A stretch of 64,000 bases of DNA from Psychrobacter sp. 72-O-c (GTDB lineage Bacteria > Pseudomonadota > Gammaproteobacteria > Pseudomonadales > Moraxellaceae): contig NZ_CAJHBI010000012.1 of NCBI RefSeq assembly GCF_904846605.1, positions 1 to 64,000 of the forward strand, written 5' to 3'. A model generated the notes under the pieces. The model was not told where the DNA came from. It did not search any database and saw nothing but the letters and a program-made list of their open reading frames with translations. The position numbers and the translations under genes were made by a program. Below are positions 19,558 through 50,407 of this stretch, piece by piece (within the stretch, counting starts at the first letter, position 1; every line of letters starts with the position of its first letter).

Positions 19558-19599
19558 GGTATTACCTAATTATTTGAGTACAAGGGTTTTGGGTTGTTA

Positions 19600-19896
19600 C
19601 TACGCTATAAGACTTAAGTTGGCGGTCTGCGCGATTATCTCTTGATGATACTCATAGGCCCTCTTATTGGCTGCATACGATATCGCTTGAGAATAACGAC
19701 CTAAATGAATGTGATTGGCCAACATGTGGTAGTTCGTAATATCAGCCTTAAGATGGAAGGCTATGTCTATATCTACAGAGGAATAAACAAATACGATGTT
19801 GTCTCTATCACCGATGCTGGGTACTAAGCGTATGCTAGTGCCCGAGGTTAGCTTTAGGTTGATCGGCTTGATCGTTTCTTTAAATAACTTAGCCAT
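19600..19896 (-). CDS. Hypothetical early phage protein
   Basis: This 98-aa protein has a beta-rich N-terminal half and a helical C-terminal half (ISYAANKRAYEYHQEIIAQ). No family recognised. It is the gene just before the primase in the early operon. Confidence 0.6.
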   Translation of the reverse strand: MAKLFKETIKPINLKLTSGTSIRLVPSIGDRDNIVFVYSSVDIDIAFHLKADITNYHMLANHIHLGRYSQAISYAANKRAYEYHQEIIAQTANLSLIA

Positions 19897-19907
19897 GCGA
19901 CTGCTCC

Positions 19908-20354
19908 TTATCTACGGTCTATAAAGTTTTTGCTATGCTCATAGCGACCCCAAAGGTCTTGCATAACTTTAGTGCCATTGGCTATGTAGTTATGGACATC
20001 TTTGTCTGGGCTAGTAAGGGTTTGATAGGCCAATACATCCATGCAGGCTCTCCAATTATCAAAGCTAAGGTTGCGCATGCTGACCAGATCGAATTGCCAA
20101 GCATATCTATTGAATATATTGAGTAGCATAGTGGCTGCTACATAACCTCCGCCGCAGTCCTTTAATGCTAGCTCTACTACCTTTGGTAGCGCTGCTATCA
20201 TCTTTTGACGGGCTTGATAGCGATAATCTTCTATCACCATCTGATCTGCTAGCCATTCATTCAGCTGGTACTGGGTTAAATTACTAGGAGCCATGTTGAG
20301 CAAGTTGTTACGAATCTGCTCTCGCTGTGCTTGATTGGGAACTGAATTAGACAT
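19908..20354 (-). CDS. Hypothetical early phage protein
   Basis: This 148-aa, largely helical protein belongs to no recognised family. The start ATG sits in the ACGATGTC context shared by several genes of this operon, with AAGGA upstream. The Gly-Gly-Gly segment (DCGGGYVAATML) is the only distinctive stretch. Confidence 0.62.
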   Translation of the reverse strand: MSNSVPNQAQREQIRNNLLNMAPSNLTQYQLNEWLADQMVIEDYRYQARQKMIAALPKVVELALKDCGGGYVAATMLLNIFNRYAWQFDLVSMRNLSFDNWRACMDVLAYQTLTSPDKDVHNYIANGTKVMQDLWGRYEHSKNFIDRR

Positions 20355-20368
20355 CGTGTTGTCCTTAT

Positions 20369-20593
20369 TTATCTGGTTAATGCTGCCGCAATATCAGGAT
20401 TGGGGCATAAGCTGGGTTGTAGTTGCTGGGTGATTTCTATACCTACTCTTGCTGAGAATAAGCAGTCTGGATTTTGGCAAGCGGCTACGAGCTGTTTGGT
20501 CAATGCGCTAAACATGACGTGGCCATAAGTGCGCATTCTCCCTGCACAGTGAGGGCAGTTTATATATGCGGTTGGTGAAGTAGGGCTTGCCAT
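20369..20593 (-). CDS. ogr: Ogr/Delta-type late-gene transcription activator
   Basis: This 74-aa zinc protein has CPHC at 14-17 and CQNPDC at 39-44, the spacing of the P2 Ogr / P4 Delta family. The aromatic/Ser segment between them and a Pro-rich tail also fit. Family members bind upstream of late promoters and contact RNA polymerase alpha to switch on capsid and tail operons. In P2 ogr lies beside D. Here it is inside the early operon, which would couple late expression to escape from repression. Confidence 0.85.
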   Translation of the reverse strand: MASPTSPTAYINCPHCAGRMRTYGHVMFSALTKQLVAACQNPDCLFSARVGIEITQQLQPSLCPNPDIAAALTR

Positions 20594-20668
20594 AGAGACT
20601 CCAGATGATTATTTGATAGGGTGAGTGGTCATCGTGGCGACTCTTTTCAGGTGAGTTATCGTTATGGC

Positions 20669-21307
20669 TTATAAGCCAGTGAGTAAATCTTTATCTTCTG
20701 CTCTGGTAATCCCTAAACAGGCATCTATCTGCTGAGATACGACATGCTTTTGCTGCTTGTCATTCAGCCCTTTATAAATATCGGTAAGGAGCTTGAGCTG
20801 CTTGGTGTTATTGAACAAACTAGACTTGATGGCAATGCCGTGGGTTTCGTAGTCATGCAGTGCCTGTGCCCATTCTGTTTGTAGGCTTAGTAGATAATCC
20901 GCAGAATCAATATTACCGTTTGCCCTTATTCTCGATGTGTTCACTCGAGCTAAATACATGTGCACACGGTCTAAACGCATACATAAAATGTCCAAAAATT
21001 GCGAGTTATCAGCTATTTCTGTATCAGTTGCGCCCATATTGGTGCCTGAAAGCGAAGCTTCGCTGGTCTTAAGACCCCCCAAATTATCGATTTTTGGGGT
21101 AATTAAGCGAATAACACCATATAAAATCTTGTTATCTTCAACTTCAAAGTTTCTTTTCACATTGCGCCAGTCGATACCAATAGCATCAGTGATTGACTTA
21201 GCGGGTACATATTCAATATCGCCAAACTTATATACCAGTAAGTTTAAGTTGTGAAAATTGATAATCTTATTAAGAACCGCTAATGGATATTCATCTACAT
21301 GTGACAT
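20669..21307 (-). CDS. Phage antirepressor with P22-AR N-terminal-like domain
   Basis: In this 212-aa protein residues ~12-75 match the P22 antirepressor N domain pattern: a strand 'LLVYKFGDIEYVPAKSI' followed by 'AIGIDWRNVKRN'. The C-terminal part is helical, with no KilA-C recognised. Such proteins inactivate repressors or act as regulatory DNA-binding proteins. The start shows AAAGGAA about 9 nt upstream within the shared CCACGATGTCACA context. Confidence 0.72.
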   Translation of the reverse strand: MSHVDEYPLAVLNKIINFHNLNLLVYKFGDIEYVPAKSITDAIGIDWRNVKRNFEVEDNKILYGVIRLITPKIDNLGGLKTSEASLSGTNMGATDTEIADNSQFLDILCMRLDRVHMYLARVNTSRIRANGNIDSADYLLSLQTEWAQALHDYETHGIAIKSSLFNNTKQLKLLTDIYKGLNDKQQKHVVSQQIDACLGITRAEDKDLLTGL

Positions 21308-21352
21308 CGTGGTATTTCCTTTTAGGTTGGGGTTGGGTTATAACAAAGTGAT

Positions 21353-21943
21353 CTAATCAATCGGTGGTAGTAGTAGACCGACGCGCTTATAAAAGGCTTG
21401 GTAGTGTTCGCCATTTCTGCGCGTCTTGAATAGAGGGACTAGGACGCGCTGCTCATCGCCGTTTTGGTCGGTATAGGTCTTTTCTGCGAAGCGACTGACA
21501 TCGATGTCTTGATAATAAGCGGGCAGCTCTACGCCATATGTATCGCATAACCCCATGGGTGTGCATCTATTTCTTTGCTCCTCTGAGATCCTGCGCATAT
21601 AGAAATGGCGCACCGTGCATTCGTTCTTACTGTTGCCTCTATTTTGTACAACGATGCAGGGTTCTGTCCTATTTACAATGGGCGCGGCTATCTGGTCTGA
21701 GTCACTAAGCATCTGCTCAAAGTCACTGCATGCCTTGTCAAAGTCAATATCCGACTCGTCAAAGTCAGATAGCTGTGTACAGACGCCGCTGAGTGTCTGC
21801 TGTATATCGGCAAACGCCTGCTGTAATTCTCGGCGGTTGATGGTGATGGTGTTCCCTTGAGCCGCTTGGGTGAGCTGCGCCATCATGGCGGTATGGACTT
21901 GGAGCTTGCTTAGGGTGGCTAGGATTGGGTTAAGTGGTAACAT
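21353..21943 (-). CDS. Hypothetical early phage protein with two possible starts
   Basis: The start at 21943 gives 196 aa. An in-frame ATG at 21982 adds 13 residues. Both ATGs are preceded by nearly the same leader (AAAGGAAMCACCACG), as though the start module were duplicated, and the downstream one keeps its full ribosome-binding site. The protein has an acidic middle (DFDESDIDFDK) and a basic, aromatic C-terminal half (TRRNGEHYQAFYKRVG). No known domain. Confidence 0.62.
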   Translation of the reverse strand: MLPLNPILATLSKLQVHTAMMAQLTQAAQGNTITINRRELQQAFADIQQTLSGVCTQLSDFDESDIDFDKACSDFEQMLSDSDQIAAPIVNRTEPCIVVQNRGNSKNECTVRHFYMRRISEEQRNRCTPMGLCDTYGVELPAYYQDIDVSRFAEKTYTDQNGDEQRVLVPLFKTRRNGEHYQAFYKRVGLLLPPID

Positions 21944-22009
21944 CGTGGTGGTTCCTTTCAGGTTAGGGTTAAGGTGTGACATCGTGGTGTTTCCTTTTCA
22001 TAAAGTCGC

Positions 22010-22279
22010 TTAGCTTGGGGTTGAGTCAATCACGGTATATTTACCGCTTGGGAACAGTAGTTTTACCGTTGCTATGGCATGACTGCTTGGTTTAAAGTTC
22101 TTACTATCGTGCTTGATGATGATCTGGTCTGAATGCGCTAATAAGAACTGTCTGATGGCGGTTGCCTCCTGACTTATCCCTGCTAAGCGCATGGCGAACT
22201 CAAAGCGCTCATGCTCTGGGTCATTCATGTAGCTGTATAGACGACGATCGCGGACGTTGTCCCAGTTTTTATGCGTCAT
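22010..22279 (-). CDS. Hypothetical early phage protein
   Basis: The start at 22279 (MTHKNWDN) follows AAGGAG by 7 nt. The frame stays open upstream to 22375, but that part overlaps the preceding gene. The 89-aa product has a helical middle (FEFAMRLAGISQEATAIRQFLLAH), resembling small accessory proteins next to ribbon-helix-helix regulators. Function unknown. Confidence 0.62.
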   Translation of the reverse strand: MTHKNWDNVRDRRLYSYMNDPEHERFEFAMRLAGISQEATAIRQFLLAHSDQIIIKHDSKNFKPSSHAIATVKLLFPSGKYTVIDSTPS

Positions 22280-22484
22280 CGCTGATCTCCTTATCGCTAC
22301 TCGTAGTGTCAGTAGGCGCTGATAAGGAGGCAAACAGCTGCATAAACTCACTATCGTGCTGCTGATAGAAGTCAATGATCTCTGCCATTAACTCCTGCTG
22401 CTGCTTGCCTGTGTGCATGGCCTTATACTGGATGTACCTGCGCTTAGATTCAGGTAAGCGTGTGGCAAACATGACTTGTGACAT
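22269..22484 (-). CDS. Ribbon-helix-helix regulator, first gene of the early operon
   Basis: In this 71-aa protein an N-terminal strand (VMFATRLPE) followed by KRRYIQYKAMHTGKQQQELMAEIIDFY fits an Arc/MetJ-type ribbon-helix-helix fold. It occupies the place of Cox/Cro, divergent from the XRE repressor, so it may be the opposing lytic regulator or excisionase. It overlaps the next gene by 11 nt. Confidence 0.7.
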   Translation of the reverse strand: MSQVMFATRLPESKRRYIQYKAMHTGKQQQELMAEIIDFYQQHDSEFMQLFASLSAPTDTTSSDKEISDDA

Positions 22485-22551
22485 CGTGGATACTCCATAA
22501 TTGAGTTTTGTGGTAAAGTGCTAACTGTCTTACGAGCTAACAATTGCATTA

Positions 22552-22575
22552 TTACATAACCGAAAGGTCATGTAA
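22552..22575. promoter_or_regulatory. Candidate repressor operator in the lysis/lysogeny switch
   Basis: The arms TTACATAACC and GGTCATGTAA (9 of 10 complementary) flank GAAA in the 108-bp space between the divergent regulators. Two direct GCTAAC repeats (520-525 and 536-541 of the 22000s) lie beside it. Confidence 0.6.
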
Positions 22576-22592
22576 ATAGATTAAGTGACTAT

Positions 22593-22934
22593 ATGGTTAT
22601 TTTAAGTGATGATATTAAACCTCAGATATCTAGGCGTTTAGCTTTAGAGCGTGAACGGCTTGGTCTAGAACAGACTGAAATAAGGGATGCTTTAGATATT
22701 GCCCTTGCGACAATTTCTAGATATGAGAATGCCAAACGGTTACCTGACCTCGGCATAGCCAAACAGTTATCTGATTTAGGTTATGACATGTCTTATGTAA
22801 TTTCGGGCAGACGGCTAGGTGAGTCTGCTAGCGATCTGACTGATGATGAGATGCAGTGGTTAGAGCTATATCGAAATAGCCAGCGGCGTGCTGAACTGGT
22901 GAGACTGATAAAGACTTACGAGTCTATGGAGTAG
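22593..22934 (+). CDS. XRE-family prophage repressor (CI/C type)
   Basis: This 113-aa protein has a helix-turn-helix of XRE type at residues ~13-65 (LALERERLGLEQTEIRDALDIALATISRYENAKRLPD, given here in part) and a short helical C-terminal dimerisation tail. There is no peptidase domain, so induction would be by antirepressor rather than RecA-driven cleavage, consistent with the antirepressor gene at 20669. It faces the early operon across the operator at 22552. Confidence 0.85.
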   Translation: MVILSDDIKPQISRRLALERERLGLEQTEIRDALDIALATISRYENAKRLPDLGIAKQLSDLGYDMSYVISGRRLGESASDLTDDEMQWLELYRNSQRRAELVRLIKTYESME

Positions 22935-22937
22935 GTT

Positions 22938-23198
22938 ATGTTTGAGAGACAAAGACTGATAGAAAAAAAGGATGTTGGCACAGCGGACTCTTTAGAAGAT
23001 GCGTGGTATGAAATGGCCTATGCTGTAGAAAGCTCATTGCATAACGCTGGTGCTAATAAACGGGACTATACTTTGATGGATTTATTCTCTCTAGCACAAC
23101 CGTTTGTACTAGAGATGTGGAAAGATAATAATAAAAATATGGATTATGATAAGGCGTTTGAAAAAAAGAACAAATCACCCTCACTTAACCCTGAATAA
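22938..23198 (+). CDS. Hypothetical protein co-transcribed with the repressor
   Basis: This 86-aa acidic protein starts 3 bp after the repressor stop, so the two form an operon expressed in lysogens. It is helical with a Lys-rich C-terminus (EKKNKSPSLNPE). No family recognised. Its position suggests a lysogenic accessory function such as exclusion. Confidence 0.6.
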   Translation: MFERQRLIEKKDVGTADSLEDAWYEMAYAVESSLHNAGANKRDYTLMDLFSLAQPFVLEMWKDNNKNMDYDKAFEKKNKSPSLNPE

Positions 23199-23211
23199 AC
23201 TGATGAACTTT

Positions 23212-23424
23212 TCACAAAGTTATTAGGCTTTCTGATGCCTCACCAGTGACTTGCGAAATATCTTTAAAGATGATCTCTAACTGCTCAAGTGATAGTGGCT
23301 CGGCATTGGGTGATAGCTCGCATAACTGACCGAGCATATGAGCGTAAGCGGCTACCCTCGCTAGTTCATCTGCCATGGCTTTGTTTCTGGTACTCATCTC
23401 AAAGGTTGTTGTATTATTAATCAT
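23212..23424 (-). CDS. Hypothetical small protein
   Basis: This 70-aa, mostly helical protein is convergent with the repressor operon and only 13 bp from it. An in-frame second Met (MSTRNKAMADEL) is a possible alternative start. The composition looks coding, but no family or function is recognised. Confidence 0.5.
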   Translation of the reverse strand: MINNTTTFEMSTRNKAMADELARVAAYAHMLGQLCELSPNAEPLSLEQLEIIFKDISQVTGEASESLITL

Positions 23425-23608
23425 ACTAATTGCTTTCCTAAGTTGGTTAGTTTGATTAACTTTTGTTCTGTTCTTATTATGAAGTTCAAGGCATGGCGAT
23501 GAAGCGGGTGGCTCTTAAGCGTATCGCTATAGACAATTAATATAAATAATAGTGATGATGATAATTGATATTTGCTAGACTGGTGTTTTGTTTTTTGAGG
23601 ATAAATAG

Positions 23609-24178
23609 ATGTTTAGAATATTTGCTTTATCAATAATGATCTCGGCTATCGCTGGATGTAGTCAGCCAGAGCCAGAAGTTATAGACATGGATGAGATGGC
23701 GGCTGAAGCAGGACTTGCGCCTGAAGATTACACGGTGCATGAGAATGGAGCGATGGAGATTAAGTCGAAGCTGGGTGCAGCTCCAAAAGTAGAGGACGTC
23801 ATCGCTGCTTTTAAAGATGAAGGTCTGCCTCTCGGTGAAATCATTATACAAACCGCTGAAACTGATCCTAATGAGAGATTGGGAAGACCTGGAGAGTATG
23901 TTGGAAGCGCTCAATTTGAAGATACAAGAGTTGAGCAGCCAGAACCAATGTCAGAGCTTGAATTTGACGAGCCTGATCTGCCAGTTGGGGGAGTGATTGA
24001 GGTATTTGAAAGCAATAAAGACTTACAGACACGAAAACAGTATCTTGAGCAGGTTTATGAGGCAATGCCTTTAGTTAAACAATATATGTATGCTAGTGAA
24101 CTCGGTTTGCTGCGTCTTGAATTCTCCTTGACTCCAGATCAGGCAAAGGAATACGAAACTGTATTTATGTCTTTATAA
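23609..24178 (+). CDS. Prophage-encoded lipoprotein (moron)
   Basis: This 189-aa protein has a type II signal peptide: MFRIFALSIMISAIAGC with the lipobox at residues 14-17 (AIAGC). Ser follows the lipidated Cys, favouring the outer membrane. The mature part is very acidic. It has its own leader and is transcribed against the late tail genes, so it is likely expressed from the prophage. Cell-surface changes or superinfection exclusion are possible roles, but nothing in the sequence proves them. Confidence 0.75.
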   Translation: MFRIFALSIMISAIAGCSQPEPEVIDMDEMAAEAGLAPEDYTVHENGAMEIKSKLGAAPKVEDVIAAFKDEGLPLGEIIIQTAETDPNERLGRPGEYVGSAQFEDTRVEQPEPMSELEFDEPDLPVGGVIEVFESNKDLQTRKQYLEQVYEAMPLVKQYMYASELGLLRLEFSLTPDQAKEYETVFMSL

Positions 24179-24192
24179 AACAGGCTACTAAT

Positions 24193-24315
24193 ATGAATAT
24201 AGAATCTGATAGATGGATGATACTTTGGCTTGAGCATTTCTTTGAGCATGCCCAGCCAGTTACTCAACTGCCAGCGGGGTGGTGTGTGTATTGTGAGCCA
24301 GTAGATTGGGATTAA
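24193..24315 (+). CDS. 40-aa small protein downstream of the lipoprotein
   Basis: An ATG at 24193 opens a 40-codon frame beginning MNIESDRWMILWLEHFFEHA and ending WCVYCEPVDWD, with a CxxC pair and five Trp residues. It lies 14 bp after the lipoprotein stop and just ahead of a strong terminator, so it would be the last gene of that transcript. The amphipathic, Trp-rich composition is unusual. No homologue recognised. Confidence 0.5.
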   Translation: MNIESDRWMILWLEHFFEHAQPVTQLPAGWCVYCEPVDWD

Positions 24316-24323
24316 TTAACAGT

Positions 24324-24359
24324 AAAGAAAAGCCCTACTAAATAGCAGGGCTTTTCTTT
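24324..24359. terminator. Strong terminator between lipoprotein operon and gene D
   Basis: A perfect 13-bp stem AAAGAAAAGCCCT / AGGGCTTTTCTTT encloses a 10-nt loop. It is U-rich on both strands and can also end the late tail transcript running the other way. Confidence 0.85.
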
Positions 24360-24481
24360 AACTTAAATTAGGGTGCTTGGGGCTGAATCCGCACCACGAT
24401 AATACGGCCGCCTTATTCGTATCTACAGTACTATAGATCTTATTTAGAGCGCTCCCAAGCAAGTATTATTATAGCATAGTG

Positions 24482-25474
24482 TTACTTTAGTGGTGCTAAT
24501 AAATCAAGTTGAGATGTTAATCCGCCTGATTTGCTATAAGTATGTACTGCCTTATCTACCGTCCATTTTAAGGCGTCGACTTCCGCCTTATATCCTTGCA
24601 ACTCAATCGGGCTTTCAGTAGTAATAGCAGGGTAGGCGTAGGCTGTGGCAATACTAAACTTAGCTTGTTGATCCTTAATACGTTTTGACTCCGCATTAGC
24701 AGCGGCATTAGCGGCCTTTTCACTCTTATACGTGCCTTTAAGTTTTTTTGTTTTACTCTTGGTGCCAGTCGTATCGACTGTCTTGCGCTTGGCGTCGTCC
24801 TTGTCCTGATAGCTTGCCGATACATTGTCATAGTCGGCCTGCCTGTCCTCAACGCTATATCTAAACTGGTCGCCTGTCTGCCTTGTAATGACTGTTAAAT
24901 CTAACGCGTGGCCACTCGCACTGACATTAGCATTAGCGGTAAATATAAGCAGCTTGCCATGCTTAATGTTTACCACTGCGCCGTACTGGTGGCATAGTCG
25001 CGTCAGTAGATTAATATCGGACTCATCTGTCTGGTCAATGTGGCCGACATCGATAGTGACCAGCTCTGGCTTGATAGACAACGCTAATTGTTGACGCTTA
25101 GCGACTGTATTTGCAATCTCGCCTAGCGTCTTATTGTGATAAGACTCGCTGTGTCCTGACTTAAGTGATGATTTAAAGTCAGCAGACTTGGCCCTGATAC
25201 TGATAGTATCGGGCGACCCTGACCACTCGCTACTGTCTACGACATACGTGCCCATATCATGAATACCGGCATCCGTATAACCCATCCAACATTGTAGTAT
25301 CACGCCACGTTTGGGTAGCTCCAATGCGCCATCGTGATCGTCTAATGTCAATGATAACTCGTCGGCGTCCATGTTCTTATTATCAGTGATAGACAGCGTC
25401 ATAAGACGTGCCATGACTTGATCGTTTAATGGCTGGTCATCAGCGGTGAGCTGAAGTACAGGTGTGCGTATCAT
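24482..25474 (-). CDS. D: Tail hub / late-control protein gpD
   Basis: This 330-aa protein is of the P2 gpD family, which forms the tail hub at the tube-baseplate junction (T4 gp27-like fold). The family segments FRYSVEDRQADYDNVSASY and RAKSADFKSSLKSGHSESYH are present. It is the last gene of the FI-D tail operon. Its ATG overlaps the stop of U. Confidence 0.92.
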   Translation of the reverse strand: MIRTPVLQLTADDQPLNDQVMARLMTLSITDNKNMDADELSLTLDDHDGALELPKRGVILQCWMGYTDAGIHDMGTYVVDSSEWSGSPDTISIRAKSADFKSSLKSGHSESYHNKTLGEIANTVAKRQQLALSIKPELVTIDVGHIDQTDESDINLLTRLCHQYGAVVNIKHGKLLIFTANANVSASGHALDLTVITRQTGDQFRYSVEDRQADYDNVSASYQDKDDAKRKTVDTTGTKSKTKKLKGTYKSEKAANAAANAESKRIKDQQAKFSIATAYAYPAITTESPIELQGYKAEVDALKWTVDKAVHTYSKSGGLTSQLDLLAPLK

Positions 25475-25917
25475 CGCTGGACCCCTTCTGGCTGGTATTC
25501 AGCAGCGACAACTTTGTCGGCTTGGACACGGTCATCATCGACACGGGTTAACTTCATCATACCGTCAATCTTACGTGCCACGCCTCTATTCGTGATATGA
25601 CTGCGGGTCTCGTCTATAGCCGTAATGACAAAGACACCATACAGATAACCGCTACCATCGAGCAGCACATAACCGCTACCACTGTCTGCCATCTCTGACA
25701 AATCATCGATGGACTGACGGTCGCCAAAGCCGTGTGATTGATAGATAAGAAAAGGGATAGTGATTGTCTCTTCTCCCACTCCGGTGAACTGATGTTGATC
25801 GCGGCCTTGTGCAATACTATTGCTCCCATACGACCATGAGCGGCTACGTTGTAGCTCGCTAAAAGTCATAGTGTCCACACTAAAGATAAATTGTCCGAGG
25901 GCTAAAAGCATTACCAT
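25471..25917 (-). CDS. U: Tail protein gpU
   Basis: This 148-aa homologue of P2 gpU has FSELQRSRSWSYGSNSIAQGRD and the glycine-rich LLDGSGYLYGVFVITAI. In P2 it is needed to complete the tail. The start MVMLLALGQFIFSVDTMTF is typical of the family. It overlaps T by 7 nt and D by 4 nt. Confidence 0.92.
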   Translation of the reverse strand: MVMLLALGQFIFSVDTMTFSELQRSRSWSYGSNSIAQGRDQHQFTGVGEETITIPFLIYQSHGFGDRQSIDDLSEMADSGSGYVLLDGSGYLYGVFVITAIDETRSHITNRGVARKIDGMMKLTRVDDDRVQADKVVAAEYQPEGVQR

Positions 25918-28646
25918 TGCTCCGCTAAGTCATACATGGCTGTGTTGTTGTTACTTTGGCTGCGCTGCTGCTTGGCTAAAGTGGCGGCTACTAGGTCAGC
26001 AATCTGCTGCTCTGACTGATTTGGCTGGGCATTGATAGTAAAGTTATAGTTGATTGTCGCTGGTTGACCTTGACCACCAGCGCCATTCATTGCTGATGCG
26101 CTGATCGGCTTGCGATTGTCAAAGCGGATCTCGCTGGTGTCCATGGCATCGCGTAAGCTGTTGCTCGTCTGTAGCATGGCATTGACTGGGCTATTATTAC
26201 TCAGTATGCCGTTCGTAATTCCATCTGGAATATAGCCACCATATTTAGTAAATACTTTGCTAGGGCTGTTGCTATTAATACCTTTGACGCCTGTAAAGGC
26301 AGACTTGACACGATTAGCTACATTAAGAATAGCATCCACGACAGCTTGCGCTTTACCGATAATACCATTTTTTAAGCCATCCATAATATCACCGCCCATA
26401 GCTGACATACGAGCAGGCAGACCTGCTAGGAAGGCCATCATACGTGATGGTATACCTGCCACGTAATTAACAGCTATGCCACCATACACCATGACCATAC
26501 CTGCAAATGTACCGATCGCTGTACCAATAGTGGTAAAGCCTAATGCTAGTGCGCCGACTAGTCCAGCAACCACTTGAGCAATTAGACTGACAATCGTACC
26601 CAATATATAGCCAAACTGACTGCCATTGGCTGTAGCCGTAGCCAGTTGCGCATCAGTGGCTTGAAATGGTGCGATGAGTGAAGCTAGGGCTGTGCCAAGC
26701 CAAGCAATACCTGTAATGATTATATCCAATACAGGACGTAACGGCTCAAATGTACTTGATAACATAGAGCCTAGACTATCGAATGTCGCTTGAAGCGGTG
26801 CTATGCCTGTTAGGAAACCATCCCACATTCCTGTAAAGAATGCTTTGATTGGTTGCCAGTACTTCATAATAAGCAAGGCGCCCACAGCAATAGCAAGTAT
26901 TGCCCAACCAATAGGCGATGTCAGCAATGCTACTGATAGCTGCCCTATTGCTCCAATCAGAAATGGCAGAGATTGTCGTGCTAAAAACCAAAAGGTTCTA
27001 GCAAATAATTTGCTAAACCATAATAAAGCCTTGCCCATCAGTCTGAACTTGCCCCAAAATGATATTCCAAGCTTGGCTAGTATGGCGTTGAATATCATTA
27101 TCGTTGCACCAAATTTAATAAAACTTGCGGCCATACTAAAGAATGTACCAAACATTAATGCTGCACCGTATTTAACTGCCCAGATTGCAGCATTGATCTT
27201 AATAAACTTTACTACCAAGGAGGCTATGGTTTTGACCAGTTCAGGGTTCTCTTTTACCCATTTGCTAATCCTATCTACTAAGTCAGTAATATTAGTTACT
27301 AAGGCCTTAATTTCTGGCGTAAATACTTCTACGACTGTTACCATAGCTGATGTAAACGTGCCTTTAGCAGCATCCCATAAATTAGCAAGTGTCCCTAATT
27401 GTGCGTTGACTCTTTGTTGAAGACTTGCTTGGACTGCCATCTGCTTAACAGTTTGATCGTAACCTGCTTGGCCTTTATTGATAAGAATATTTAATGCAGT
27501 TAAGTTCTCTTTATCTGTTCCATACAGCGTTTCAATCACTTTGGTACGCTGTTGCGAGTTGAGTGTTGATAGTTTATCCATTTGTTTATAGAAGTTCTCT
27601 ATACCGCCAAACTCACCTTTACCATCAGTAAAGTCCATTGATATATCGATGCCATAATCTTTTTTTAGACTGTCTAGCTTATCACCGACATCCAAACTTA
27701 GTGAGCGTGAAAAAATCTTACTCATAGCATTACCTGCTGACCCACCTTCAGTCATACCGGAATTGCCTAGCATAGTTAAGAATGGTGATAGGGCTTTGAT
27801 ACCTTTAGCGCCTTCCATTCGTAATACTTTCATACCAGGGGAGAGTCCGACAAAGGCCTGTTTAATCCACTCTGGATCTAAGCCGGTATGATGAATACGC
27901 TGAACAATATCCATGAACTCCATCATGTCTTTGGACGCTACGTTGGTCGCATCTGATAATTGAGCAACGAACTTTGCCGAATCACCAAACTCCATCTTCA
28001 TGATGATGCCGATTTGCCCAGCTGCTTCGCCAACGCCGTCCAGTATTCGCTCTGCTGATATGTTTTCTTTAATCAGTACGTCAAACATATTTTGAAAGTC
28101 AGAAATGGACCCTGGTAACTTTTTGCCCATATTACCAGCAAGCTCAGTCAGCTCATCAAAACCATCGGCAATCTTACCCGTAGAGTCCATCATAGAAACT
28201 TTTAGATTAGTCGTCGCTGCCTCAGCATCCATAAAGGCTTTAATGGGTATGGACGCTAATGCTGCTATACCGCCTACAACTAAAGCATTGTTTACGACTT
28301 GCTGTCGCATCTGTCTGCGCGTATCCGCGAAACCACGAGCCAAACTATCAGTCTTACGCTGTACAGCGGTTACGCCCTTTAAGACTAAAGCAAAGTCGCC
28401 TACCAACCCTCTTGCGTGCTGTCGAGCCGTTGTCAATAAACTGTTAGTACGGCCAAGCGGCTGATTAACTTTATTTAGTCCTGTGCGATCAACCTGCGCG
28501 AGACTGTCATTGAAAGCATCGACAGTACGTGTAGCCCGCTCGAACGACTTCGACATTTTGTCTGATCTATCGATAATGCCCCGTAATGGCCCACTAATAT
28601 CATCAATGAGCTTGAGTGTTGCCGATAGATCTAAGTTGCCTGCCAT
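25911..28646 (-). CDS. T: Tail tape-measure protein gpT
   Basis: This 911-aa tape-measure protein has an N-terminal helical region (1-130), a phage tail tape-measure core domain (about 150-420) and a hydrophobic, membrane-like segment (about 480-760). The C-terminal VKGINSNSPSKVFTKYGGYIPDGITNGI motif is typical of tape measures. The length of the protein sets the length of the tail tube. Sheath, tube and tape measure together define a contractile tail. Confidence 0.94.
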   Translation of the reverse strand: MAGNLDLSATLKLIDDISGPLRGIIDRSDKMSKSFERATRTVDAFNDSLAQVDRTGLNKVNQPLGRTNSLLTTARQHARGLVGDFALVLKGVTAVQRKTDSLARGFADTRRQMRQQVVNNALVVGGIAALASIPIKAFMDAEAATTNLKVSMMDSTGKIADGFDELTELAGNMGKKLPGSISDFQNMFDVLIKENISAERILDGVGEAAGQIGIIMKMEFGDSAKFVAQLSDATNVASKDMMEFMDIVQRIHHTGLDPEWIKQAFVGLSPGMKVLRMEGAKGIKALSPFLTMLGNSGMTEGGSAGNAMSKIFSRSLSLDVGDKLDSLKKDYGIDISMDFTDGKGEFGGIENFYKQMDKLSTLNSQQRTKVIETLYGTDKENLTALNILINKGQAGYDQTVKQMAVQASLQQRVNAQLGTLANLWDAAKGTFTSAMVTVVEVFTPEIKALVTNITDLVDRISKWVKENPELVKTIASLVVKFIKINAAIWAVKYGAALMFGTFFSMAASFIKFGATIMIFNAILAKLGISFWGKFRLMGKALLWFSKLFARTFWFLARQSLPFLIGAIGQLSVALLTSPIGWAILAIAVGALLIMKYWQPIKAFFTGMWDGFLTGIAPLQATFDSLGSMLSSTFEPLRPVLDIIITGIAWLGTALASLIAPFQATDAQLATATANGSQFGYILGTIVSLIAQVVAGLVGALALGFTTIGTAIGTFAGMVMVYGGIAVNYVAGIPSRMMAFLAGLPARMSAMGGDIMDGLKNGIIGKAQAVVDAILNVANRVKSAFTGVKGINSNSPSKVFTKYGGYIPDGITNGILSNNSPVNAMLQTSNSLRDAMDTSEIRFDNRKPISASAMNGAGGQGQPATINYNFTINAQPNQSEQQIADLVAATLAKQQRSQSNNNTAMYDLAEQW

Positions 28647-28670
28647 GTTATCCGCCTAATTAATTATCCG

Positions 28671-28955
28671 CTATTCGTTATTTTCGTTTTGCGATGCCTT
28701 GTAACATTCGGATGTCATTGACGTGCATATCAGCGACTCTTGCCAGGTCTGTAATTGAGCTGCTACAGTCTTTGAGTAGCTGTCCGCTGGTAGTGGCGTA
28801 CTCAACTCTAAACTGGGCGTCGGTGGCGGCGTTGGCACTGAGTCGGTCGATAGTCTGTGACAGCCGCTCATTAGCAGCGACAGTATTAGCAGCGTCAATA
28901 GCATTAGATTTTTCACGCTTCTTGGCATCGTTAATAGCTGCAATGGTTTGGTCAT
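28671..28955 (-). CDS. Rz1: o-spanin (Rz1-like lipoprotein), embedded in Rz
   Basis: The frame is shifted within Rz. The start at 28955 (MTKPLQLLTMPRSVKNLM) gives a lipoprotein signal ending LLMSGC, then a Pro-rich segment (VPTPPPTP). The product is the outer-membrane half of the spanin bridge that fuses inner and outer membranes at lysis. It extends 7 nt beyond the Rz stop. An upstream in-frame Met at 29000 is less likely because of the signal-peptide length. Confidence 0.85.
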   Translation of the reverse strand: MTKPLQLLTMPRSVKNLMLLTLLILSLLMSGCHRLSTDSVPTPPPTPSLELSTPLPADSYSKTVAAQLQTWQESLICTSMTSECYKASQNENNE

Positions 28956-29172
28956 AACTTTCTTTCTCCAGCTTACGCGCTCGTACTTCATAATTTGCAC
29001 GCTCAGTAGTTAATGTCAGCGCGTGTTCAGTCTTTATATATTCAACTTCAGCGTTAGCCTGCTTGACTTGCAAAAACAAAATGATACAAGCAGCTATGAC
29101 GATCAACAGCAATGCTAATAGTGCGCCGATAATTATTTCTCTCCAAAACTTGAGCGCTAAAAACATCTCCAT
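28678..29172 (-). CDS. Rz: i-spanin (Rz-like)
   Basis: This 164-aa type II membrane protein has one N-terminal transmembrane helix (about 14-36) and a long periplasmic coiled coil (about 38-130), as in lambda Rz. It partners the overlapping lipoprotein frame. It lies between tape measure and E'/E, 10 kb from the holin and endolysin genes, an uncommon place for spanins. Confidence 0.87.
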   Translation of the reverse strand: MEMFLALKFWREIIIGALLALLLIVIAACIILFLQVKQANAEVEYIKTEHALTLTTERANYEVRARKLEKESYDQTIAAINDAKKREKSNAIDAANTVAANERLSQTIDRLSANAATDAQFRVEYATTSGQLLKDCSSSITDLARVADMHVNDIRMLQGIAKRK

Positions 29173-30041: not shown

Positions 30042-30557
30042 TTATAAGCCTAACTGAGCGTTAATCTCACCGGTCATGTCTTTACCGGCGACGATAAAGA
30101 TGCCATTGACGAAGTCGATCTCAAGCAAGGTAACGCCATCGTCTACAATCTTGAGATAAGTGACGCTGTATGTCAGTTCGTGCTCGTTGATACTGCCAAG
30201 CTCAAGCTCACCTAATGGTAGGTTGGTGACTGAGCCACGCATATACACATCGCGCACAACATGGGTGCAAGTGTCTTGACGCTCATACGCACCAATGTAG
30301 CGGATGGGCAGCGCGTCAACACCGCAATAAGCAAGCTGGGTAATATGACGGGCATCGACACCCGTGTAAGTCACCGTTGACTCCATGGCCTCAAAACCCA
30401 TGTCCAACTTGATGTCGCCGATCATACCAGCGGCGCGATAGTCTTCTGTTTTCTTCACAATCTCTGGCAGTGTAATGGTCTTGGCTGTACCCGCGTAGCT
30501 GTCACCATCGACGCGGACGTTAAAGTTTTTTAGTACTGCAGGCAGTTGCTTAGCCAT
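30042..30557 (-). CDS. FII: Tail tube protein gpFII
   Basis: This 171-aa homologue of P2 gpFII, the major tail tube protein, polymerises inside the sheath. Family features include the start AKQLPAVLKNFNV and the C-terminal SINEHELTYSVTYLKIVDDG and LLEIDFVNGIFIVAGKDM. It directly follows the C-terminal sheath piece, with 28 bp between them. A 200-bp gap with no recognised feature separates it from E. Confidence 0.94.
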   Translation of the reverse strand: MAKQLPAVLKNFNVRVDGDSYAGTAKTITLPEIVKKTEDYRAAGMIGDIKLDMGFEAMESTVTYTGVDARHITQLAYCGVDALPIRYIGAYERQDTCTHVVRDVYMRGSVTNLPLGELELGSINEHELTYSVTYLKIVDDGVTLLEIDFVNGIFIVAGKDMTGEINAQLGL

Positions 30558-30585: not shown

Positions 30586-31185
30586 TTAAGCGCCTTGTGC
30601 GATGAGCTTGCCAAAGTCGACTAGATAGCGGTCGGTAATGCGCTGATTGAGCTGGAGGTTTTCAAGCGTGGGCACTGGGGTGTAGTCATAATCAATGACC
30701 AGTAGGCCTTGGCTTAAATCTTGTTCATTGTTCTGCGCGTCGTTATACCAGCAGCTTGCACCGATAAGCCAGCCTTTGGCCACAGTAGCGCGTAGCTTGG
30801 CATTGATTGAGTCGATAATATCGCGCACCAGTACCGGCGTTAGCGGTTGATCAATGAAGGGGAAGCAGCCATTGATAATAGTGTCAAGTAGCCACTGCGC
30901 TGTAAGCGTGCCGGTCTCAAAGGCAAAGCGCGGATCTGCTGAGCAAGTACGGTTGCCCCAAAAGCGGAAGCCTTCGTGCTGAATCACCGAGGTGACATCA
31001 TTCGCATTTAGGTAGCCGACTTCAGTGTTGGGGTCTTCCAAATCCCAAGTGCGTGGATGGACGATACCGCCCACGCCAGGGACAGGGACGTTAGAGATGG
31101 ATTTGGTAAAGCTTGCAGGGTACTTTTCATCGATTAGGCAGCGCATTGCAAGTGCGGTGGCGATGATGGGTTTTAGTTGGGTCAT
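30586..31185 (-). CDS. FI: Tail sheath gpFI, C-terminal piece of a split gene
   Basis: This 199-aa protein corresponds to the C-terminal half of P2-type gpFI: TALAMRCLIDEKY, EGFRFWGNRTCSADP, LVRDIIDSINAKLR, and DYDYTPVPTLENLQLNQRIT at the end. It picks up the sheath sequence essentially where the piece at 34198-34755 stops. Its ATG overlaps the RT stop as ATGA, and an AAAGGAG motif within the last RT codons gives an independent ribosome-binding site. No frameshift or stop damages it. It probably co-folds with the N-terminal piece. Confidence 0.9.
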   Translation of the reverse strand: MTQLKPIIATALAMRCLIDEKYPASFTKSISNVPVPGVGGIVHPRTWDLEDPNTEVGYLNANDVTSVIQHEGFRFWGNRTCSADPRFAFETGTLTAQWLLDTIINGCFPFIDQPLTPVLVRDIIDSINAKLRATVAKGWLIGASCWYNDAQNNEQDLSQGLLVIDYDYTPVPTLENLQLNQRITDRYLVDFGKLIAQGA

Positions 31186-32204
31186 AGATTGCTCCTTTTG
31201 GGGTGATGTCTCTGATGATACGTTTTTGGTAGCTGACGATATAAGTCAGGATTTTCTTGCGCTGCGTAATTTAGCAAATGCTGCAACGACCGCGTTTTTG
31301 ACGCATGAGCTAAATGTGATATAAACGAGTCAAGCTTGTTATTTCTTACCGCCTTTCTTGACTTGTATAAACTATATTTTCTGATAAATCTAGCCGACCG
31401 CCATGTCCTGTAACCGCAGAAGTTAGCGCCTTTACGCGTGTTCGCAATCGTCGACCTTGATAGCGTTAGTTTCAACTCGTTATTCACAAAGTCTGTTATC
31501 TTCGCCCTGTAGTCCAGTGCTTCGTCGCGGGTCAAACCGAACAACAAAAAATCATCAACATATCGGCAATATCCAGCGCGTGGTTGTAATTCTCTTTTAA
31601 CGTAATGATCTAAAGGGTTCATATAAATTAACGCGTACATCTGAGACAACAAATTGCCGATTGGTATACCAGTAGGCTCTTGGTACTCAGCAAACATCAT
31701 CATTAAATTCACAAGCTTTTTATCTTTAATCTTTTTCTCAATTAAGCGTCTAAGCGTAGGGCGGTCAATGCTATAAAAGAACTTTTTAATATCCAGCTGT
31801 AATGTATATGTGCCTTGACCTGCTCGTCTAAGTGCTTGCTGTGTGTAGTCCGCCGCTTTATGTGTACCCAGTCCGACTCTGCACGCAAAAGACTGTTCGA
31901 TAAATGTCTTTTCAAATACAGGCATAGCCTTAGCGTATACAGCGTGTTGAACCACGCAGTCTCTAAACGCTGGGGCATAGATATCCCTCTGTTTTGGTTC
32001 ATAAATCGTAAACTTAAAATAAGGTCTTGGTTTATAAGTGCCCGTCATTAGCTGGTTGTTTAGTGCGGATAACTCAGTTGCCAATTTCTTTTCAAATTCA
32101 AAACAACCGCGTCTGCCGCTTTTGCTTTTCTTAGCGTCTAAAAACCCTTGGTACAAGGAGTCTTTTGAGACGGTAGATTCATATAGGTTGCCCACTCTTT
32201 TCAT
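31182..32204 (-). CDS. Diversity-generating retroelement reverse transcriptase
   Basis: This 340-aa RT has motif 3 Asp138 (LQLDIKKFF), the catalytic YVDD at 215-218 (GYCRYVDDFLLFG), and GIPIGNLLSQMY at 179-190. The 'SQ' in that last block is characteristic of DGR RTs, where retroviral and intron RTs have QG. Size and lack of maturase domains fit. It copies the TR RNA with errors at adenines and delivers the cDNA into VR. It starts 138 nt after TR, with an AAGGA ribosome-binding site. Its stop overlaps the sheath C-piece start. Confidence 0.94.
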   Translation of the reverse strand: MKRVGNLYESTVSKDSLYQGFLDAKKSKSGRRGCFEFEKKLATELSALNNQLMTGTYKPRPYFKFTIYEPKQRDIYAPAFRDCVVQHAVYAKAMPVFEKTFIEQSFACRVGLGTHKAADYTQQALRRAGQGTYTLQLDIKKFFYSIDRPTLRRLIEKKIKDKKLVNLMMMFAEYQEPTGIPIGNLLSQMYALIYMNPLDHYVKRELQPRAGYCRYVDDFLLFGLTRDEALDYRAKITDFVNNELKLTLSRSTIANTRKGANFCGYRTWRSARFIRKYSLYKSRKAVRNNKLDSFISHLAHASKTRSLQHLLNYAAQENPDLYRQLPKTYHQRHHPKRSNL

Positions 32205-32342
32205 AAATATCCTTAAAAAAGATAACGTGCCTGACTTTCGATTTATCTACTAGAAATGCACGCTTATTCCGATTTCGCTTACAGCAGGAAAACGTCTCCC
32301 TTGGCACCAGACGACAACGTGTCGTTTGAGGTGATGCCGAGT
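32205..32342 (-). ncRNA. Spacer between TR and RT (predicted part of the DGR template RNA)
   Basis: The 138-nt non-coding stretch has the same position and nearly the same length as the ~140-nt Sp region of Bordetella phage BPP-1, which is needed for RT priming. Assignment is by analogy. Frames crossing it are artefacts of the TR. Confidence 0.6.
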
Positions 32343-32458
32343 CCGCCCGCACACCAACGTTGTTGTTGCTATTCGTACGAGAATTATTGAAGTTGATGTT
32401 CCACACGCCCGCAAGCGCGCTGTTATTCCAATTGCCACCCGCAAGCGGGCACATATTA
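32343..32458 (-). repeat. DGR template repeat (TR)
   Basis: These 116 bp align without gaps to 32908-33023 (offset 565). On the minus (coding-sense) strand TR is rich in AAY Asn codons. There are 15 differences to VR: 11 A-to-G, 2 A-to-T and 2 T-to-G. The last 17 nt in coding sense (CGTTGGTGTGCGGGCGG) are identical in both and form the IMH/IMH*-like GC-rich end. Confidence 0.95.
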
Positions 32459-32481: not shown

Positions 32482-32865
32482 TTACTGCTTAACTGACTTT
32501 ATCCAACCGCCAATAATCTGGCCGATTTCATCAATTCTCAGTGATATCGCTAGATACCTTTTTGTATTGAGTTTTTCAGTCGATGTTTTCTCGGTTTTTG
32601 GATGACCAAAATAGCCTAGCTCAAAAGCCAATCTAACCTGCATCCTTAGCTGTTCATGTCTAATATCTAAATTGGTCAAAGTCGTTTTCTTGTGATATCT
32701 CTTTTGCGCCTCTATGACATAATCGTACATCTCATAAGCTGTGTTTCTTATCCGCAGTGCCAAGCCATTTTTTTCATGACTTGGAAAGTGATTCAGATAG
32801 ATATTCAACAACTTCATAGTCAGTACAAACTTACGATCAAGATTGGCTTCACTATCTACTGCCAT
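32482..32865 (-). CDS. avd: DGR accessory variability determinant (Avd-like)
   Basis: This 127-aa, four-helix protein is of the Avd/23S-rRNA-intervening-sequence family. It has a basic surface and the family C-terminal pattern YLAISLRIDEIGQIIGGWIKS. Avd pentamers bind the RT and template RNA and are required for retrohoming. It starts 26 nt after the variable-protein stop with AAGGAG 6 nt upstream, and ends 23 nt before TR. Confidence 0.92.
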   Translation of the reverse strand: MAVDSEANLDRKFVLTMKLLNIYLNHFPSHEKNGLALRIRNTAYEMYDYVIEAQKRYHKKTTLTNLDIRHEQLRMQVRLAFELGYFGHPKTEKTSTEKLNTKRYLAISLRIDEIGQIIGGWIKSVKQ

Positions 32866-32890: not shown

Positions 32891-34222
32891 TTAAACACTA
32901 TACAAGGCCGCCCGCACACCAACGCTGCTGCTGCTATCCGTACGAGAATCACTGAAGTTGATGTCCCACACGCCCGCACGCGCGCCGTAACCCCAATAGC
33001 CACCCGCACGCGGGCACATATCATCGACACGGTTGTTATAAAAACGGTCATGACCAAATAGATCTGTGCCGGTAGTAGCGTCAACACCGCCAGTTTGCGG
33101 AATGCCTGCACAAGATGCTTGCCACTCTTTTCCAGTCAGGGCACTGGAGAATACTTGCTGAGTATCGGAACCTATGTACATACCCTGACTAGTGCCGGTC
33201 AATGCGCCGATACTCGTGCCTAGCGACTCATAGTTTTGTGCGATACCAGTCGCACCCCATGCATCATTTGCTGCTGTCGCACCACTGGTAAGTGACGCCG
33301 CTTTAGCAGAGGTTTTGAGTGCATAAAAATTGCCTGACAACTGAGTTAGACCTAAGCATATCTCAAACATATTGCCGTTCAGATCAGCCACGCCTGACGC
33401 TTGCCCGTTATGCGTGGTTTTGGCAAATAGTGTTGCTGAACCAGTTTTTCCCGCTTTTAGATAACCAGTTGCAGTATAGTTAACCGTTGCATCATCAACA
33501 TCACCAAGCGCGTCGTTGTTACAGCCTTTTGGGTAGTTTGCAATGCCTGTTGCGTCATACCATGCGCAATTATCAATGCTAGTCGCCGCTTGAGCGTGCG
33601 CCATACTGAGTAGTGATAATGCACGTTGGATAAAGATGGTGGTAACAAAGAAAGCACCGCCGCGCGTTTTAACAGCATCAATAGCACCGGCGTATGTGTT
33701 CTCCGGCACACCATCCAAGCCGCTAAATGGGGCGTTGGTCGATGCAGACGACAATGGGATGCCATTTTTAATTGAGCTTGCTGTTCCCGCGTTATTACTG
33801 GCTAAATACTTATCGACAAAGACGCCGTCTTTAAGCTTGCCGTCGTCATAAAAGGCACGATGTACCGCATAACCCGCTTCGTTAGCTGCTGCCACGTCTG
33901 CAAAGTCGTACTTAGACTTAACATCACAAGAGTTTAGACCATACTCAGCATAACGGGGGCTATCCGCTCCACCCCAGCGATAATAAAACATAGGAACCCA
34001 AACCATTACAGAGTTGTCTGAGTATTGGTAGTTACCGTAGTTTACATCTCCAACGGTACGTGTGCCTGTCATTTCACTCATGCCAAGCGGCAAGTTATCA
34101 GTAGTGCCGATACCGAATGTGGCTGCGCCTTGGATGCCGATATTATTAAGAGTACTGTTTACTACAGGTGGTGGTGTTATTGGCCCCGGTAACGGGGCTA
34201 CGGCTTTCCCGGCACACCCCAT
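32891..34222 (-). CDS. DGR variable protein (C-type lectin / FGE-like fold), probably a frameshift extension of sheath-N
   Basis: The frame is 443 aa from the ATG at 34222. After a Pro-rich linker (about 7-20) it matches the large family of phage DGR target proteins: YGNYQYSDNSVMVWVPMFYY, IDNCAWYDATGIANYPKGCN, GVADLNGNMFEICLG, and the terminal GVWDINFSDS...VGVRA. Residues 400-438 are encoded by VR; 12 of them differ from the TR-encoded residues through adenine changes. The ATG has no Shine-Dalgarno sequence and is preceded by an in-frame TGA. A -1 slip at 34204-34210 would fuse residues 1-184 of sheath-N to Ala7 of this frame (about 621 aa). Confidence 0.9.
   Translation of the reverse strand: MGCAGKAVAPLPGPITPPPVVNSTLNNIGIQGAATFGIGTTDNLPLGMSEMTGTRTVGDVNYGNYQYSDNSVMVWVPMFYYRWGGADSPRYAEYGLNSCDVKSKYDFADVAAANEAGYAVHRAFYDDGKLKDGVFVDKYLASNNAGTASSIKNGIPLSSASTNAPFSGLDGVPENTYAGAIDAVKTRGGAFFVTTIFIQRALSLLSMAHAQAATSIDNCAWYDATGIANYPKGCNNDALGDVDDATVNYTATGYLKAGKTGSATLFAKTTHNGQASGVADLNGNMFEICLGLTQLSGNFYALKTSAKAASLTSGATAANDAWGATGIAQNYESLGTSIGALTGTSQGMYIGSDTQQVFSSALTGKEWQASCAGIPQTGGVDATTGTDLFGHDRFYNNRVDDMCPRAGGYWGYGARAGVWDINFSDSRTDSSSSVGVRAALYSV
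32908..33023 (-). repeat. DGR variable repeat (VR)
   Basis: This 116-bp variable copy at the 3' end of the variable-protein gene ends 17 bp before the end of the coding frame. Asn codons in TR are changed here to Tyr, Gly, Asp and Ser. Divergence concentrated at template A shows that diversification has already occurred in this lineage. Confidence 0.95.
34183..34210 (-). promoter_or_regulatory. Predicted -1 programmed frameshift signal, sheath-N to variable protein
   Basis: Minus strand: G GGA AAG (34210-34204) is in phase with sheath-N. A 5-nt spacer (CCGTA) follows, then the stem GCCCCG / CGGGGC with loop TTAC (34198-34183). The zero-frame stop TAG (34200-34198) is the second codon after the heptamer. 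GGGAAAG is the slippery sequence of the lambda G/GT tail genes. The -1 frame is exactly the variable-protein frame. Confidence 0.8.
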
Positions 34223-34755
34223 TCATTATCAATAAGACACAATTCACGGTCGCCATAGGTATCGCGATAAGCCGTAATTAATTCTTTATCAGTGATTAGT
34301 GTGCCATCGATATTACGCGGTGAAGCGTAGACCATGCAGCGACGGCGCTTAGCGATAGATACCAATTTAAGCACCACTTCTGGCGTGTCAATCTCTGGTG
34401 CGCCCAGACGTTTAGGCGTCAAGCCAAAGCGCGATTGGCAGGTCAGTAGCACGTCCAGTATATTGACATCGAATGCGGCGTCGAATGAGGTGTCAACTCG
34501 CAAGATAACGACGGTAGGATTGTGAATATCACGGATGGTTTGTAGGCAGTCGCCCAATGTGCCTTCGATGCCTGCCTTGTCGATATTATCCTGAGTGATG
34601 CCCGTTAATAAGACCGGTGTATCGAGCGGATACATATCAGCGTCAGCGTCAGTACTGGTAACGACCAAGCCAATGACGCTGACATTGGCATTGCGCATGG
34701 GCAATATGCCTTGAACCAACTCTTGAGCGGTGATGCCGTGGTGAAATGTAGCCAT
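34198..34755 (-). CDS. FI: Tail sheath gpFI, N-terminal piece of a split gene
   Basis: This 185-aa protein matches the first half of P2-type gpFI: FHHGITAQELVQG, VVTSTDADADMYPLDTPVLL, SRFGLTPKRLGAPEIDTPEV and YRDTYGDRELCLI. It stops at ...EWGVPGKP, the point where P2 gpFI continues into the part now found at 31185. It has a good ribosome-binding site (AAAGGA) 27 nt after H. The last codons form a slippery heptamer leading into the variable protein. A T6SS-like two-polypeptide sheath (VipA/VipB) is the structural precedent for such a split. Confidence 0.9.
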   Translation of the reverse strand: MATFHHGITAQELVQGILPMRNANVSVIGLVVTSTDADADMYPLDTPVLLTGITQDNIDKAGIEGTLGDCLQTIRDIHNPTVVILRVDTSFDAAFDVNILDVLLTCQSRFGLTPKRLGAPEIDTPEVVLKLVSIAKRRRCMVYASPRNIDGTLITDKELITAYRDTYGDRELCLIDNEWGVPGKP

Positions 34756-34782: not shown

Positions 34783-35763
34783 TTAAGCGGTGCGTAACCA
34801 ATGGCCAACGACGCGTGATGGCTGAATATTGTTATGGGGCTGGTCGCCGCCACCTGACTCATCTATATAGTCAGGATAAGTTGAACCTGTCGTATCTACC
34901 GCCCTATCAGATTCTTGACTTGAGTCATGAGCTATTTGAGTCCGACTTGAAATTTTCAAATCATGAGCGTGACTAGCAGACTCAGCAAGGGTTAAGGTAT
35001 GCTCATTCTCACCAAACTCATTACCTATGGTTTTGTAGTCTGCAGGGTCTGCTGACTTAGTAGATAACCCAACGAGCGTACGCCCCTCGGCAAAGCGTGC
35101 CCACGTACCATAACCATGATGTGTGGCAACGGCGTCGGCATTCGCATGATTAATAGTCGTGGTGTAGGTGTCGCCAACCTTGATAGATTTACGGTCTAGC
35201 AGTTCAGTCAGTTTTTCATTTAGCTGCTGTAGGGTGTTATCGGTTGAAGTCTTGGATGCGTATTGGTCGTGTGGATCAGTGTCCGCTAAATGACTGAGCG
35301 GCACAAAAGTAGTTCGCGCCCACGATTGAGTAGCAGTAACAACATTGGCATCAATAACTAAGTTGACGTCAGGATTATCGATACTAATGACTGCTTTGAT
35401 GCGATAGTCCACAGCTGCAGTACTGCCAGCGACTGGCTTTTGCACCTCTGGTAATTGACCGACCCAAATTAAGTCGCCATCACCATCGATAAGTCCAAGC
35501 TCACGAATGAACCAACCACCTTGATTTTGCGGAACAATACAAGTGATTTCATATTGCCCCGATTGAGCAGTAGCAGCGACACTTTGCACTGCTGCTTGAT
35601 AGCGCTTACTGACTAAGACTTGCTCACCCAAGCGCTGACTAAAGTCAACATTGATACCTTGGCCAACCGCAAATTCAGCAATGCGTAACGGCGGACTGCC
35701 AGCGTTGGCAGCTGCTGCGATTTTCTGTTGGCCAAGTGTGGTAAGTAAGAGCTGATAGGTCAT
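34783..35763 (-). CDS. H: Tail fibre protein (gpH-like)
   Basis: In this 326-aa protein the N-terminal ~150 residues match the P2 gpH attachment domain (TTLGQQKIAAAANAGSPPLRIAEFAVGQG, in part; QGGWFIRELGLIDGDGDL). The C-terminal end has a collar-like motif (NEHTLTLAESASHAHD and GGDQPHNNIQPSRVVGHW). It is much shorter than P2 gpH (about 670 aa), and no fibre-assembly chaperone G follows. In its place comes the sheath/DGR segment. Confidence 0.87.
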   Translation of the reverse strand: MTYQLLLTTLGQQKIAAAANAGSPPLRIAEFAVGQGINVDFSQRLGEQVLVSKRYQAAVQSVAATAQSGQYEITCIVPQNQGGWFIRELGLIDGDGDLIWVGQLPEVQKPVAGSTAAVDYRIKAVISIDNPDVNLVIDANVVTATQSWARTTFVPLSHLADTDPHDQYASKTSTDNTLQQLNEKLTELLDRKSIKVGDTYTTTINHANADAVATHHGYGTWARFAEGRTLVGLSTKSADPADYKTIGNEFGENEHTLTLAESASHAHDLKISSRTQIAHDSSQESDRAVDTTGSTYPDYIDESGGGDQPHNNIQPSRVVGHWLRTA

Positions 35764-50405: not shown

Positions 50406-50407
50406 CG

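Follow-up and report, generated by a model that had tools for sequence, protein, structure and literature searches.

Immunoglobulin-like (Ig) and fibronectin type III (FN3) domains are added by frameshifting to several phage structural proteins, including SPP1 gp17.1, the T3 coat protein and proteins of Lactobacillus phage A2 and the Listeria phages PSA, A118 and A500, according to two reports (PMC5009743, PMC8718954). Here we analyze a 64,000-nucleotide stretch of Psychrobacter sp. 72-O-c (assembly GCF_904846605.1, contig NZ_CAJHBI010000012.1, positions 1 to 64,000; hereafter the window), in which a prophage has its contractile tail sheath split in two; the gene for the N-terminal half (sheath-N) ends in a candidate slippery site and is followed, out of frame, by the variable protein (VP) of a diversity-generating retroelement (DGR). 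An original prediction, made from the sequence alone, had read this site as a lambda G/GT-type -1 frameshift signal joining the two proteins. We consider it probable that the site is a programmed -1 frameshift signal ending sheath-N; a minority sheath-N/VP fusion of 621 residues is predicted, which would display a retroelement-diversified, lectin-like domain on the contractile tail.

The closest parallel is with the Ig/FN3 systems, in which a structural protein likewise has a short and a frameshift-extended form and relatives use the domain in or out of frame with seeming indifference; however, the extended proteins there belong to capsids or tail tubes (PMC5009743, PMC8718954), whereas the carrier here is half of a split contractile sheath, the modules are of many types and one of them is fed by a DGR. 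Similar to the lambda G/GT and P2 E/E+E' tail chaperones, the locus has a -1 slip arrangement, but those genes precede the tape measure gene, while the gene here encodes a sheath and has another kind of extension. The lambda G/GT heptamer is G_GGA_AAG, the same as the one in the window. This heptamer is listed as highly shift-prone in PMC5009743. DGRs with C-type-lectin VPs (TaqVP; Bordetella phage Mtd) share with this locus the reverse transcriptase (RT), Avd, a template repeat (TR), a variable repeat (VR) with mismatches at TR adenines, and a TaqVP-like structural model; unlike in those systems, the VP here has hardly any N-terminal portion of its own, and the frameshift would tether it to the sheath. 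The type VI secretion proteins TssB and TssC also form a contractile sheath from two separate proteins, yet the halves found here are related to the one-piece P2/pyocin sheath, cut between pyocin R2 residues 183 and 199. Finally, multi-domain sheaths of types 2 and 3 carry extra, often Ig-like, domains with a suggested role in adhesion on a core formed by N- and C-terminal parts, as described by Evseev et al. (PMC9230969); extra domains on such a core are also seen here, but there a single chain is extended in every subunit, whereas here two proteins form the core and the additional part is optional. The addition of domains by frameshifting is established for capsid and tail-tube proteins, and extra, suggested-adhesive sheath domains are already known (PMC5009743, PMC8718954, PMC9230969).

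A probable slip signal at the end of the sheath-N gene

Sheath-N (34198..34755; minus strand, as are all genes described below) encodes 185 residues of a P2/pyocin-type sheath, and direct reading of the minus strand gives GTG CCG GGA AAG CCG TAG at its 3' end. These codons contain an X_XXY_YYZ heptamer, G_GGA_AAG, in the zero-frame phase (34210 down to 34204), with the zero-frame stop TAG (34198..34200) one codon further on. A five-nucleotide spacer, CCGTA, separates the heptamer from a hairpin at 34183..34198, GCCCCG-TTAC-CGGGGC, whose six-base-pair stem is entirely GC and closes a four-nucleotide loop. In all of these points the original prediction proved correct. The 48 nucleotides 3' of the heptamer fold better than shuffled sequence (Z -2.7), providing the stimulatory structure that is common, and not obligatory, at -1 sites. 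From the heptamer, the -1 frame stays open for 439 codons (32891..34210), running via GKAVAPLPGPITPPP through a proline-rich linker into the C-type-lectin-like VP, and the predicted fusion has the length of about 621 residues that had been proposed. Such a frameshift would join an extra domain to a structural protein of the virion. Across 20 genes of the window, with 4973 codon positions in total, the sheath-N site is the sole zero-phase GGGAAAG, and GGA makes up just 7.5% of their glycine codons; its presence at the end of sheath-N is therefore more than chance would give.

Conservation of the junction among relatives

To place the site among its relatives, we compared 51 split loci, of which 33 come from viral contigs, 17 from genome stretches and one is the window, and dereplicated them to 44 clusters. 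The largest group, class A, was defined by a heptamer, a zero-frame stop within 10 codons and a -1 frame open for 109-649 codons; it comprises 25 clusters, the window and locus L044 among them, with GGGAAAG in 17, GGGGGAG in seven and AAAAAAG in one. Three clusters (class A0) are similar except that their -1 frames are open for just 25, 9 (to a contig end) and 32 codons. In six others (class B) an in-frame extension of 120-208 codons follows a retained heptamer (GGGAAAG in four, GGGAAAT and GGGGGAA in one each) and the -1 frame closes in 3-8 codons. The remaining 10 clusters have no heptamer: five have an in-frame extension of 71-170 codons (L046, L078, L213, L215, L222), four a short end and a separate next gene (L052, L142/L211, L146, L147), and one, L217, no extension. 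Among the intact sheaths that served as a control (69, with 61 distinct sequences), one has a listed heptamer near the homologous place, a TTTTTTG. As to the conservation proposed as a check of the original prediction, heptamer, nearby stop and long -1 frame recur together in 25 of 44 clusters. The cleanest support among the relatives for a -1 frameshift comes, at the level of sequence, from L044, which has a sheath-N 54-57% identical, the same heptamer and a stop directly behind it; 23 further clusters share the architecture. No cluster of class A (0 of 25) has a +1 frame open for 60 codons. By eye, the hairpin alignment shows one C-G to T-A double change from L069 to L072.

An annotated VP open reading frame would start at ATG 34222, and the VP could accordingly be a free protein, translated from this codon through coupling to sheath-N translation, in which ribosomes terminating at the TAG would reinitiate shortly before it. 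The ATG does lie in the right frame and overlaps the end of sheath-N, and ATGs 4-8 codons before the heptamer are also found in L061, L062, L065, L066 and L069. However, the window ATG has no Shine-Dalgarno-like sequence upstream and is preceded by a TGA in its own frame, as had been noted at the outset, whereas AAGG, AGGA or GGAG is present at the starts of sheath-N, Avd, RT, sheath-C and tube; moreover, it sits on the codons of a conserved E-W-G of sheath-N. Ahead of the heptamer, the -1 frame lacks any start codon in 16 of the 25 class A clusters, and five have none even to 30 codons downstream. In L044, ATG, GTG and TTG are all absent from this frame between the codon preceding the heptamer and the 98th codon beyond it, and across this start-free stretch of about 100 codons the protein sequence is conserved in L050, L060 and L062. 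An independent ribosome-binding site in homologues, which would have spoken against the original prediction, was looked for from before the heptamer to 30 codons past it, and no class A start there has a Shine-Dalgarno-like signal (0 of 25); the signal is present at 13 of 18 evaluable sheath-C starts, a comparison in which seven of 25 were not evaluable and the rule, which favored starts with a signal, was slightly more generous. Among 110 sheath-N database proteins, 95 have a recognizable core end (the other 15 were excluded from the count) and 51 of these 95 are short, ending in GK followed by 0-3 residues or in KKK in 49 cases and in VKK in two. We regard an independent VP start as very unlikely.

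The heptamer might otherwise just reflect the conservation of Pro-Gly-Lys where sheath-N ends, with no programmed slip and with the out-of-frame module a decaying insertion. In line with this, in-frame members mostly retain G-K at the corresponding position. Against such an origin, the rare glycine codon GGA is used, and in L134 the heptamer is AAAAAAG instead of GGGAAAG, with the phase and the repeat module that follows unchanged. Folding with Z below -2 is found in 12 of 28 slip-dependent clusters versus none of six in-frame clusters. Furthermore, the long -1 frames of L044, L050, L060 and L062 remain open with 58-86% protein identity where they align. A by-product of this kind therefore seems extremely improbable to us, and we retain the programmed frameshift.

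Exchangeable modules behind the junction

When the extensions were compared all-against-all (loci fetched later being outside this comparison), they formed mostly unrelated groups. Those out of frame comprise DAYQP-type repeats (eight loci), a leucine-rich-repeat group (six), an Ig-like/VP group (five) and singletons, and there are more in frame. Family searches matched LRR_5 in L066 (3e-21), DUF285 in L076 (1.6e-22) and, weakly, a tail-fibre family in L056 (0.0012); Ig-like matches were all below the cut-off, and the extensions of L087, L063 and L045 gave no family match. Two pairs have near-identical sheath-N, each in one cluster when mainly the upstream side is compared: L050 and L134 carry different modules (VP and repeats, respectively), and L063 is in frame while L065 is out of frame. 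Because near-identical sheath-N proteins carry different modules, the module is swapped at or near the heptamer, with the frame mode switching along. A structural model of the in-frame long sheath-N of L063 has a good sheath half (means of 10-residue blocks above 70 for residues 21-170), and its extension is unusable (block means below 50). The same indifference to frame is described in PMC5009743 for capsid and tail proteins of phages that bear Ig-like domains, and is ascribed there to the chance landing of mobile domains; by analogy the same may apply here.

This diversity also bears on whether the slip is real while its long product acts as an assembly factor absent from the particle, as for lambda gpGT or P2 E+E'. 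The heptamer is shared with lambda G/GT, and, according to PMC5009743, many phages use frameshifting in their tail chaperone genes and both gpG and gpGT are missing from lambda virions. The extensions, however, mostly differ from one phage to the next without recognizable relationship, which does not resemble a conserved role in assembly; several look like binding-type folds, one is a retroelement target, and the in-frame relatives would carry the module on almost all of their sheath-N. We judge an assembly role improbable, and favor a long product that would be displayed on the tail.

Additional genes were seen at the same place. In L056, L058, L061, L064, L065, L070 and L134, and also in L138 (6619-8502), genes with their own starts, of about 200, 320 or 627 codons, lie between the extension and sheath-C; the split site also accommodates independent cargo, perhaps fibres. 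Two genes sit between the sheath halves in L045 (6570-8077, genome G102). By eye these resemble a UDP-glucose 4-epimerase and a glycosyltransferase, possibly pointing to sheath glycosylation.

The split sheath as a lineage trait

Sheath-C (30586..31185) has its own Shine-Dalgarno sequence, matches Pfam Phage_sheath_1C (7.5e-9) and aligns with pyocin R2 sheath residues 199-382; sheath-N covers residues 3-183, with a match that is weak by sequence (E 0.011) and good by fold. The two proteins together are thus homologous to the whole P2/pyocin-type sheath, which is not a single polypeptide in the window or in any sheath-N relative found in the genus: sheath-N of this kind occurs in five of 105 genomes, including this one, and is separate from sheath-C in all five. 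In the family, 56 of 344 genomes have a sheath-C match. Nineteen of these, from three genera, have open frames of 199-229 residues and are split (one, G269, lies at a contig start); the remaining matches, in the same and other genera, sit in open frames of about 390-520 residues, so intact sheaths are also common in the family, and this genus, too, has a distant one (G032). Across the order (390 genomes), 43 genomes outside the family have matches, which lie in open frames of at least 320 residues, except for one of 214 residues at a contig start (G396). A length-limited database search, uninformative on intact sheaths, returned 382 matching proteins of about sheath-C length, those among the 120 listed having 194-206 residues.

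Taken together, the sequence comparisons indicate that the split is a trait of the lineage and not made by the retroelement. RT was found in one of the 51 split loci, that of the window, and we rejected a one-off disruption of an intact sheath by the retroelement, given that relatives without one are split at the same point. An assembly error is also unlikely in view of these relatives; the identical second prophage copy (see below) is weak evidence only on this point. Beyond the original prediction, then, the split is not retroelement-caused, many modules are exchanged at the junction, and in some relatives the module is in frame or absent. A minimal split sheath is seen in L217 (G208), with sheath-C close behind sheath-N and an in-frame TAG in the sheath-C match. 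Other sheaths in the VIA list span longer chain ranges inside the N half, which hints that their extra domains lie upstream of this split point.

The retroelement and the surrounding prophage

Downstream of sheath-N, the retroelement consists of a VR at the 3' end of the VP (32905..33021), Avd (32482..32865; Pfam bAvd 4.2e-17), a TR (32340..32456) and RT (31182..32204; Pfam RVT_1 1.7e-15). VR and TR are identical at 102 of 117 nucleotides, and 13 of the 15 differences fall at TR adenines, as in a DGR. The VP model resembles TaqVP (5vf4; Foldseek E 1.4e-9) and, at a moderate quality (mean pLDDT 63.5), is consistent with the C-type-lectin-like fold of DGR VPs. Among the 51 split loci, RT with Avd is found in the window alone and the VP in the window, L044, L050 and L060; three relatives therefore have the module without an adjoining retroelement. 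Elsewhere, the same cassette is attached to a fibre end or to VPs that bring an N-terminal domain themselves. The same genome has a second retroelement in another prophage (L029; C9:50000-66000), with an RT 80% identical and a VP that has its own start and a short N-terminal domain. In L088 (2501-5245), a retroelement RT of distant kinship (36%) and a match resembling the VP (24%) precede an intact sheath.

Neighboring genes encode the tail tube protein FII (30042..30557; Pfam Phage_tube 8.4e-45) and a tail-collar fibre protein (34783..35763; Pfam Phage_tail_fib 6e-26 and Gp10_C). The prophage is present in tandem with a period of 34,795: window positions 13873-29172 and 48668-63967 are identical, as is a second copy of the retroelement region (C12 65295-70795), and the VRs of the two copies do not differ. 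An array resembling clustered regularly interspaced short palindromic repeats (CRISPR) in the same genome (L030; C25:41500-44000) has a 60-bp period and at least 39 units. Two of its spacers are identical over 32 nucleotides to the prophage, at window 34711-34742 (the start of sheath-N) and 31416-31447 (RT), and a third matches 31575-31604 at 97%. Because these spacers target the cell's own prophage, the array suggests an anti-CRISPR or other escape.

Implications for the tail sheath

In the mechanism that we favor, most ribosomes would end at the TAG and produce the 185-residue sheath-N, while a minority would slip by -1 and produce the fusion; for lambda, PMC5009743 gives a G:GT ratio of 30:1, with which slippage at a few percent would agree. 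With sheath-C made from its own ribosome-binding site, short and long sheath-N would co-assemble with it into one sheath, placing a few lectin-like domains, varied by the retroelement if it is active, on the tail, where they would face outward and bind the host surface. In relatives, an out-of-frame module would give mostly the short form and an in-frame module mostly the long form, and the heptamer would set the dose of an appendage that can be swapped on the sheath.

In a literature search with limited coverage of subscription papers, which is no proof of absence, we found no sheath-gene frameshift and no sheath-anchored retroelement target. As far as that search reaches, the locus would provide the first case of programmed frameshifting in the sheath of a contractile tail and the first of a sheath-anchored retroelement target, and it belongs to a lineage with a stable two-protein sheath. 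It would also correct annotations such as that of MF417929 (Bracchivirus U2F1), where the pieces are three separate genes, two of them hypothetical. On balance, we lean toward the broader view that a P2-like phage lineage made its sheath an exchangeable display platform, in which the heptamer doses the recombined module and, in this prophage, hypervariable lectins are presented along the tail instead of at fibre tips. Two questions become directly testable: the purpose of extra sheath domains, and the way in which a phage controls how many copies of a binding module it carries.
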